Origin: Hyphomonadaceae bacterium
GTDB lineage: Bacteria > Pseudomonadota > Alphaproteobacteria > Rhizobiales > Hyphomicrobiaceae
NCBI GenBank assembly: GCA_019747815.1
Contig: JAIEQJ010000026.1
Coordinates: forward strand, 62,001-126,000
Direction of reading: 5' to 3'
Length of the DNA stretch: 64,000 bases
Both the position numbers and the translations under genes were made by a program. Of this stretch, positions 48,558 to 50,195 are shown piece by piece. The notes beneath the pieces are model-generated. The model ran no database searches. It was not told where the DNA came from and saw nothing but the letters and a program-made list of their open reading frames with translations. Each line of letters opens with the position of its first letter. Position 1 is the first letter of the stretch.

Positions 48558-49049
48558 TCAGCGGACTGCCAGGGGTCGGTTGCACAACCGGTCGAGCCGC
48601 TCTCGCCACAACGCGAGCGCCGGGGCTACCAAAAGCTCCATGACGAGCCCACCGAGCATCGCCAAGGACGGCACGCCGACCAGGACCAAGCCGGCCAAAC
48701 GGGCAAGCCCCCCCGTGAACACCAGCAGGGTCAGCAGCCGGAAGCGCACGCCCTGCGCTTCAATCCGCGGCACCGTTGCCCAGAACGCCAGCCCGATCGC
48801 GAGCAGCAAGCCGGAAAGATAGCGGCCGGCACTGTCGACATCAGACCCCAGAGATGCGGCGGGCCCGAACACGCCGATGCCGAACAGCGCGCCGGCAAGC
48901 CCCGCCCCGATTGGAATGAGCGCCAGGGTCGCCACGGCGATCTGCAGCGTTCGGATCTGCGCGGTGCAGGTCGCTGTCGAGCATGCCATGGCCATGATCG
49001 CGATTGTTGTAGCCGCGCTCCCGCTGCCGCCCGTGCCGTGGGGCGACAC
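48558..49049 (-). CDS. Small DUF4345-like membrane protein
   Basis: About four hydrophobic segments; FGPAASLGSDVDSAGRYLSGLLLAIGLAFWATVPRIEAQG. Confidence 0.6.
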   Translation of the reverse strand: MSPHGTGGSGSAATTIAIMAMACSTATCTAQIRTLQIAVATLALIPIGAGLAGALFGIGVFGPAASLGSDVDSAGRYLSGLLLAIGLAFWATVPRIEAQGVRFRLLTLLVFTGGLARLAGLVLVGVPSLAMLGGLVMELLVAPALALWRERLDRLCNRPLAVR

Positions 49050-49136: not shown

Positions 49137-49505
49137 CTATCTCGACGGGCCGCCATCCTCGCGCAGAAAGCGCCCAGCCACCCACCCCTTCCGGCCCTCA
49201 TACTCAACCTGACACCAGCGCGATCGGGCAGCCTGGTCGCGCTGAGCCTTGGTCATGCGCTTCCACTGCTCGAATGTGACGTCGTTCGGGCAGCCGTGAT
49301 TCTTCAGCCCGCGCGCGTTGTAGGGGATGCGGGCGATCGCCTCGCTGTCTGCATTGGGCGCCATGCGCATGTTGAGCGCATCGTTGGACCTCACCCCTGT
49401 AACGGCCCAGAAATCCGGGCCGTCCGCGCCCTGGCCGTGAACCAGCCCCGAGCCGGCGGCCAACAGCATCAGCACACAAAGGATATGGGCGCCACGTGCA
49501 AACAT
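49137..49505 (-). CDS. Exported bacterial SH3-domain protein
   Basis: Signal peptide; LNMRMAPNADSEAIARIPYNARGL...WCQVEYEGRKGWVAGRFL. Confidence 0.8.
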   Translation of the reverse strand: MFARGAHILCVLMLLAAGSGLVHGQGADGPDFWAVTGVRSNDALNMRMAPNADSEAIARIPYNARGLKNHGCPNDVTFEQWKRMTKAQRDQAARSRWCQVEYEGRKGWVAGRFLREDGGPSR

Positions 49506-49558
49506 GGGGCAATTTAATCGCCACGCAAGTCAGTTGCCAAGATGGCAACCGCCGACCA

Positions 49559-49649
49559 CCATCCCGGCACGGAAAAGCCCGGTCCAAGGAGAGAAGGCCC
49601 GAAGGTTTAAGTGTTTCGAGACTTGTTGGACCGGGCCGAGTGCCGATGG
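49559..49649 (-). ncRNA. Candidate structured small RNA (or long-loop terminator/5' UTR element)
   Basis: Nested complementary arms CCAT/ATGG, CGGCAC/GTGCCG and GCCCGGTCCAA/TTGGACCGGGC; on the minus strand preceded by TATAGT (49660-49655), and the inner stem is followed by TTTT. Confidence 0.55.
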
Positions 49650-49727
49650 CGCGCACTATAGACGCATTTGGGGCATGGCCACGGTTGGCACGTGGCGAAG
49701 TCATGACTTCTGCGCTGGGCCAAGCCT

Positions 49728-50195
49728 TTGGCATGGACGGCGGCAACGCGCTTGCCTTGCCGGACCAAAGTGACGATCATGCCACATGCTCTCGCACAGG
49801 AGGCGCCTTTGAGCGAAGCCGAGCCCATACAGGTCAGCCCGCGCGCTCGCGCGGGCCTTGCAAGCACAGTGGCTTACCTCCCCTCGTCCCATCCCACGAC
49901 AATCTATTTCAACCGCCAGGAGCTCAGGGAGATTCTGGCGCTGTACGGCCGCAAGGTGGCGGCCGGCGAATGGCGCGACTACGCCATCGACTTCGGCAAG
50001 GATAGAGCCGTCTTCTCCGCGTTCCGACGCACCAGCGAGGTGCCGCTCTATCGCATCGAGAAATGCCCGAAACTGACACGCCGGCAGGGCGCCTACAGCG
50101 TGGTGACGGCGACAGGCCTGATCCTGAAGCGCGGCAACGACCTGAGCCGCGTGCTGGGCGTGCTGGAAAAGAGCGTGCGGCTGGCGGCGGTGTAG
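49728..50195 (+). CDS. DUF2794 family protein
   Basis: TIYFNRQELREILALYGRKVAAGEWRDYAIDFGKDRAVFSAFRRTSEVPLYRIEKCPKLTRRQGAYSVVTATGLILKRG. Start may be further in (e.g. MPHALAQE). Confidence 0.82.
   Translation: MAWTAATRLPCRTKVTIMPHALAQEAPLSEAEPIQVSPRARAGLASTVAYLPSSHPTTIYFNRQELREILALYGRKVAAGEWRDYAIDFGKDRAVFSAFRRTSEVPLYRIEKCPKLTRRQGAYSVVTATGLILKRGNDLSRVLGVLEKSVRLAAV

Follow-up and report, generated by a model that had tools for sequence, protein, structure and literature searches.

The closest described relative of the RNA considered here is BjrC174 (Rfam RF02355), an abundant, experimentally detected small RNA (sRNA) in B. japonicum whose promoter was the most active among those start sites tested that had no recognised promoter (PMC4842269). 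A functional parallel is GsrN of Caulobacter, in which a six-cytosine loop pairs with a G-tract in katG mRNA, and which depends on the general-stress sigma factor, its homologues usually lying near those genes (PMC5869019). This likeness extends to the canonical, BjrC174-type relatives of our RNA only and consists in an exposed C-rich loop for pairing with G-rich mRNA leaders; the copy studied here differs in having no C-rich loop and, as in the rest of the window, no EcfG-type promoter (GGAAC-N15-18-CGTT). 6S RNA (RF00013) resembles it as a long stem with internal loops, but is encoded in this genome by a separate gene (contig C41, 65.1 bits) and is absent from the window, in agreement with an earlier note on this DNA, which had not recognised the hairpin as 6S.

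The window is the whole stretch of 64,000 nucleotides that was analysed, part of a 5.4-Mb genome, and the earlier note had singled out a 91-nt piece of it, between an SH3-domain gene and a DUF2794 gene, as a candidate novel small RNA. Checked base by base, its parts were found exactly in place: the outer arm pairs CCAT (49559-49562) with ATGG (49646-49649) and CGGCAC (49565-49570) with GTGCCG (49640-49645), the inner stem GCCCGGTCCAA (49577-49587) with TTGGACCGGGC (49626-49636), the minus-strand TATAGT (49660-49655), and the T-run after the inner stem (AAAA at 49573-49576, UUUU on the minus strand). The pyrimidine-rich stretch GGAGAGAAGG (49588-49597; CCUUCUCUCC on the minus strand) is present as well, but it forms the 3' side of an internal loop rather than part of the apical loop to which it had been assigned; in the predicted fold its first CUU is mostly paired and its UCUCC is free. 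The 91-nt piece folds at -40.4 kcal/mol on the minus strand (z -4.1; 1 of 200 shuffles equally good) and at -40.3 kcal/mol on the plus strand (z -3.2). Because both strands fold better than nearly all shuffles, the fold of this piece alone does not settle the strand, and it does not prove function either. Table 1 collects the features of the locus.

Table 1. Features of the sRNA locus and its neighbours, in positions of the window
Feature	Position	Strand	Remarks
Predicted small-RNA gene, ~77 nt	49573..49649	minus	predicted 5' end near 49649, predicted 3' end at the U-run
Helix 1, 5' arm GGCCCGGUCCAA	49626..49637	minus	12/12 pairs with compensatory changes among 69 members
Helix 1, 3' arm UUGGACCGGGCU	49576..49587	minus	compensatory changes as in the 5' arm
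Helix 2, 5' arm CUCGAA	49615..49620	minus	5/5 modelled pairs with compensatory changes
Helix 2, 3' arm UUCGGG	49598..49603	minus	compensatory changes as in the 5' arm
Apical loop ACACUUAAACC	49604..49614	minus	in the alignment, without the C-rich stretch of relatives; same loss in sister genome G004 (locus L013)
CUUCUCUCC, 3' side of internal loop	49588..49596	minus	identical in 4/4 members of the genus that have the RNA
Terminal UUUU after helix 1	49573..49576	minus	U-runs of at least 5 in 9/25 proximal-type homologues
-10 box TATAGT	49655..49660	minus	5/6 match to TATAAT
Outer closing arm, 5' side CCAUCGGCAC	49640..49649	minus	strong pairing in the window, not family-wide
Outer closing arm, 3' side GUGCCGGGAUGG	49559..49570	minus	beyond the U-run
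DUF2794 protein gene, divergent neighbour	49809..50195	plus	Pfam PF10984, E 4.7e-39
SH3-domain protein gene, downstream, outside the unit	49137..49505	minus	PF08239

Evidence for an RNA gene came from covariance models and from covariation. Model R2, built from 20 members with all members of the window's genus excluded, matches 49562-49649 on the minus strand at 42.6 bits (E 1.3e-9), compared with 12.7 bits on the plus strand. The earlier note had proposed a covariance analysis of the DUF2794 upstream region, and this analysis yielded compensatory changes throughout: in alignment A6 (69 distinct members) all 17 pairs of the two helices carry double changes, 94.1% of cells are paired, double-change cells number 143 against 37 in shuffles, and covariation is 0.419 against 0.224. 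None of 500 shuffles reached the real values on any of these measures, and support collapses when the structure is shifted by 1-3 columns. The A6 figures lean towards the model because A6 was fitted to it; a plain MAFFT alignment of 12 sequences, with no model fit, shows compensatory changes in 7 of 12 outer-helix pairs, and helix 1 is also seen in unfitted alignments. On the unfitted alignment A4, where the arms of helix 2 are out of register, RNAalifold did not return this helix as such. On these comparisons, the minus strand at 49573-49649 is almost certainly an RNA gene.

The strand was read from three features. Read on the modelled strand, the helices of A6 contain 122 G-U cells; their 20 A-C cells are the ones that would count as G-U if the other strand were transcribed. 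A TATAAT-like box (at least 5/6) lies within 22 nt upstream in 13 of 25 proximal-type members (the subfamily of the window RNA, described below) on the minus strand and in 0 of 25 on the plus strand, with 1.0 expected from shuffles; the start near 49649 that had been predicted from TATAGT is thus backed by conservation of its -10 box. U-runs of at least five at the RNA end occur in nine of the 25 on the minus strand and in none on the plus strand. Since wobbles, -10 box and U-runs all favour the minus strand, we take it as the transcribed one. The window copy itself has a U-run of only four and a weak -35 region, and a scan of 49400-49950 detected no separate Rho-independent terminator hairpin, UUUU following directly on the main stem.

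The outer closing arms had been presented as part of the structure, and they do pair strongly (-19.7 kcal/mol), but they are no general family feature. Measured against swapped flanks, the pairing of a member's own flanks passes the 95% mark in 17 of the 69 members, where about 3-4 would be expected; flank pairing in the window is among the strongest of the 69, the letters differ between lineages, and canonical members often close their flanks with GUUGCCUC/GAGGCAAC. The closing stem is therefore recurrent, in about a quarter of members, and not universal. Because its 3' arm lies past the UUUU, it would be present only in a read-through transcript.

The Rfam search that had been suggested returned no family at gathering score in the whole window and none at E <=1 at the hairpin, RF02355 (membership threshold at least 45 bits) included. 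An EcpR1-like match at 48815-48884 on the minus strand (25 bits against a cut-off of 60) falls inside a coding gene and was dismissed. Kinship to BjrC174 emerged from other models. Model R3, built from 26 BjrC174-type members only, matches the window RNA over its full length on the minus strand (34.1 bits, E 1.7e-5 in 148 kb), with the limit that R2 and R3 shared their structure beforehand, the R3 sequences having been aligned with R2. Matches of model R1, built from the window's type of RNA, fall within RF02355 matches in Bradyrhizobium, Afipia and Rhodopseudomonas. RF02355 itself is found at gathering score in the DUF2794 slot of Bradyrhizobium, Afipia, Rhodopseudomonas, Rhodoplanes, Pseudolabrys and Ancylobacter loci, above cut-off also in genome G111, which belongs to the window's own family, and below threshold in the slot of several more relatives. 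From RF02355 in the slot, R1 matches inside RF02355 matches and the R3 match, we conclude that the window RNA is very probably a diverged relative of BjrC174. The claim of a novel small RNA consequently held for the minus-strand RNA gene near 49649, for which covariation, strand asymmetry, -10 box and synteny speak, and only in part for its novelty.

The two RNAs share the slot divergent from DUF2794, the strand, the two-helix architecture and a CCGGUCC/GGACCGG-type stem, and their models detect each other in both directions. BjrC174 features absent from the window RNA are the CUCAGCCCCCCAGCCCC loop, replaced here by ACACUUAAACC, the GUUGCCUC 5' motif and a separate terminator hairpin; the window RNA instead carries CUUCUCUCC and stops with the main stem, compared with about 200 positions in RF02355. 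As it scores below the RF02355 threshold and is without the C-rich loop, we filed it as a related subfamily.

Homologues had to be sought by protein-anchored synteny, since DNA similarity alone reached two genomes of the genus and one weak partial match; upstream of DUF2794, relatives have hairpins that are built alike but from different letters. Among genomes with both a model match and a DUF2794 match, the RNA lies divergently within 0.5 kb upstream of DUF2794 in 44 of 54. Within the family, R1 matched 49 of 103 genomes; of 40 further families of the order, each sampled once, 24 gave R2 matches (E <=0.01). Class-wide matches are sparse (13 of 385 with strict filters), with DUF2794 again divergent at three class-level loci (L185, L186 and L190). 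The DUF2794 protein is predicted to fold into a long helix, a five-strand sheet and a short helix (mean pLDDT 81); as a candidate RNA-binding fold it found no PDB match at E <=0.001 (best Foldseek E 0.28). Near the far side of DUF2794, sub-threshold minus-strand matches to BjrC68 (RF02353) were seen at L096 1375-1435, L092 1519-1588 and L031 1921-1986, which may mark either a terminator-like hairpin common to these loci or another sRNA. On the other side of the hairpin, the SH3-domain gene has its own promoter-like site, TTGGCA-18-TAAATT (minus strand, 49540-49511). This site ends about 6 bases before the SH3 start codon, which suggests that the SH3 mRNA may be leaderless or nearly so.

In several genomes the minus strand encodes a tandem pair of these RNAs, a proximal and a distal canonical one (e.g., L018, L034, L039, L041, L090 and L102). 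The proximal type has an inner CUCGG/CCGAG helix and a CUUCUCUCC-like stretch and often ends directly in a U-run; the distal canonical type starts with GUUGCCUC and carries the CUCAGCCCCCCAGCCCC loop. L131, L159, L173 and L183 are examples of intermediates, in which a CUUCUC stretch occurs together with the C-rich loop. The C-rich loop is nearly fixed in sequence across families and is the strongest constraint in the relatives. In the window's genus, the canonical copy is present elsewhere in 7 of 7 genomes and the proximal type beside DUF2794 in 4 of 7, the slot being without an RNA copy in the other three (G001, G002 and G003); two of the four proximal copies, those of the window and of G004, have lost the C-rich loop. 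In the genome studied here, the second, canonical BjrC174-type copy (C88:63985-64082, plus strand; L084 1986-2083) has the full CUCAGCCCCCCAGCCCC loop and sits between a 4-HPA-hydroxylase-like gene and DUF1223-like/aconitase genes. DUF1223-like/aconitase or 4-HPA-hydroxylase-like neighbours are kept at the canonical-copy locus in several genomes of the genus. Farther away, one genome of family f81 (G181) has four R2-like matches (C1:168843, C1:2222788, C1:2222981 and C2:1557761), two of them adjacent, and class-level matches occur in two further genomes of that family (G406 and G483). The one G181 locus examined (L187) has no DUF2794 neighbour, and the G181 matches are possibly a multi-copy branch of the RNA family.

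As a whole, the locus is probably best explained as a minus-strand, BjrC174-related sRNA gene in the DUF2794 slot that acts in trans by base-pairing, although for the mode of action taken separately, pairing with mRNA, we see only about even chances. Gene, strand, structure and kinship rest on sequence comparison, and we infer start, end and trans action. Judging from the anatomy, transcription would proceed from the TATAGT box, starting near 49649, and stop where the U-run follows the long stem; nearly all of the resulting RNA, about 77 nt in length, would be a single two-part hairpin. Its free UCUCC, within CUUCUCUCC, could then pair with purine-rich stretches of mRNA leaders (GGAGA-type sites), the earlier note having suggested ribosome-binding sites as partners; the start region of DUF2794 as pairing partner did no better than shuffles across 11 loci. 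By analogy with GsrN, the canonical relatives would pair mainly through their C-rich apical loop, and because a second copy elsewhere in the genome carries that loop, the window copy may be specialised or under relaxed constraint.

Two other readings are serious rivals, though we regard each as rather unlikely. The RNA might bind and titrate a protein (e.g., an RNA chaperone) instead of pairing with mRNA: the near-fixed C-rich loop of the relatives could be a protein site, and DUF2794, encoded in the conserved neighbouring gene, is a small protein without an assigned function. However, that loop is missing from the window copy, and the predicted DUF2794 fold resembles no RNA-binding protein in the PDB. 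In the second rival, the window copy would be a decaying paralogue, in which the stem persists while function has moved to the canonical copy on another contig. Decay is conceivable given the loss of the most conserved element, a U-run of only four, a weak -35 region and the absence of a slot copy from three of the seven genus genomes; the loss of the loop is shared with the sister genome, and the canonical copy, present throughout the genus, has shared neighbours where tested. Against decay, each of the four genus members with the RNA keeps CUUCUCUCC, the 12-pair stem and a -10 box intact.

A 5' leader or attenuator of the downstream SH3-domain gene would fit the common strand, the 57 nt from hairpin to SH3 start and the order kept in G004, yet we hold it to be very unlikely: the downstream gene varies, being HtpG-like in L021, L038 and L041 and M3-peptidase-like in L031 and L036 as read from the sequence, with L016 arranged otherwise, in G002 the SH3 gene occupies this position although the RNA is absent, and the SH3 gene has the promoter-like site noted above. 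We give even less credence to a leader of DUF2794 on the plus strand, for although the element lies upstream of that gene and folds on the plus strand too, wobble, -10 box, U-run and the R2 scores all point to the minus strand, and what reads as a conserved promoter-like CTTG-N18-GATCAT stands between the RNA and DUF2794. A strong hairpin of about 90 nt could also be a housekeeping RNA or a dispersed repeat, but the lack of any Rfam match at gathering score in the window, the 6S gene elsewhere in the genome and the single-copy state of the RNA at the DNA level, with no other long match in the genome, leave this a negligible chance.

This kind of RNA is already known; what is new is that a proximal subfamily exists, that the two types can stand in tandem, that the range reaches beyond Bradyrhizobiaceae and that the RNAs are linked to DUF2794. 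We found no report of these four points in the literature searched, and the 2012 source paper of BjrC174 (PMID 22258152) may state part of them. One could go further and suppose that the slot houses an ancient alphaproteobacterial RNA family, divided into the BjrC174-type, the proximal CUUCUC-type (frequently in tandem with it) and perhaps more subfamilies, and that RNA and protein work as one functional module in which DUF2794 is the partner of the RNA or a co-regulated effector, but this is a speculative and rather improbable extension. With these findings, a family whose annotation reads just 'Bradyrhizobiaceae sRNA' extends to Hyphomicrobiaceae and other families of Alphaproteobacteria, and it gains a second subfamily overlooked by current RNA annotation. 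Conserved divergent synteny ties both subfamilies to one protein of unknown function. The roles of BjrC174 and DUF2794 thereby become jointly testable in culturable Bradyrhizobium, Afipia, Rhodopseudomonas and Methyloceanibacter.
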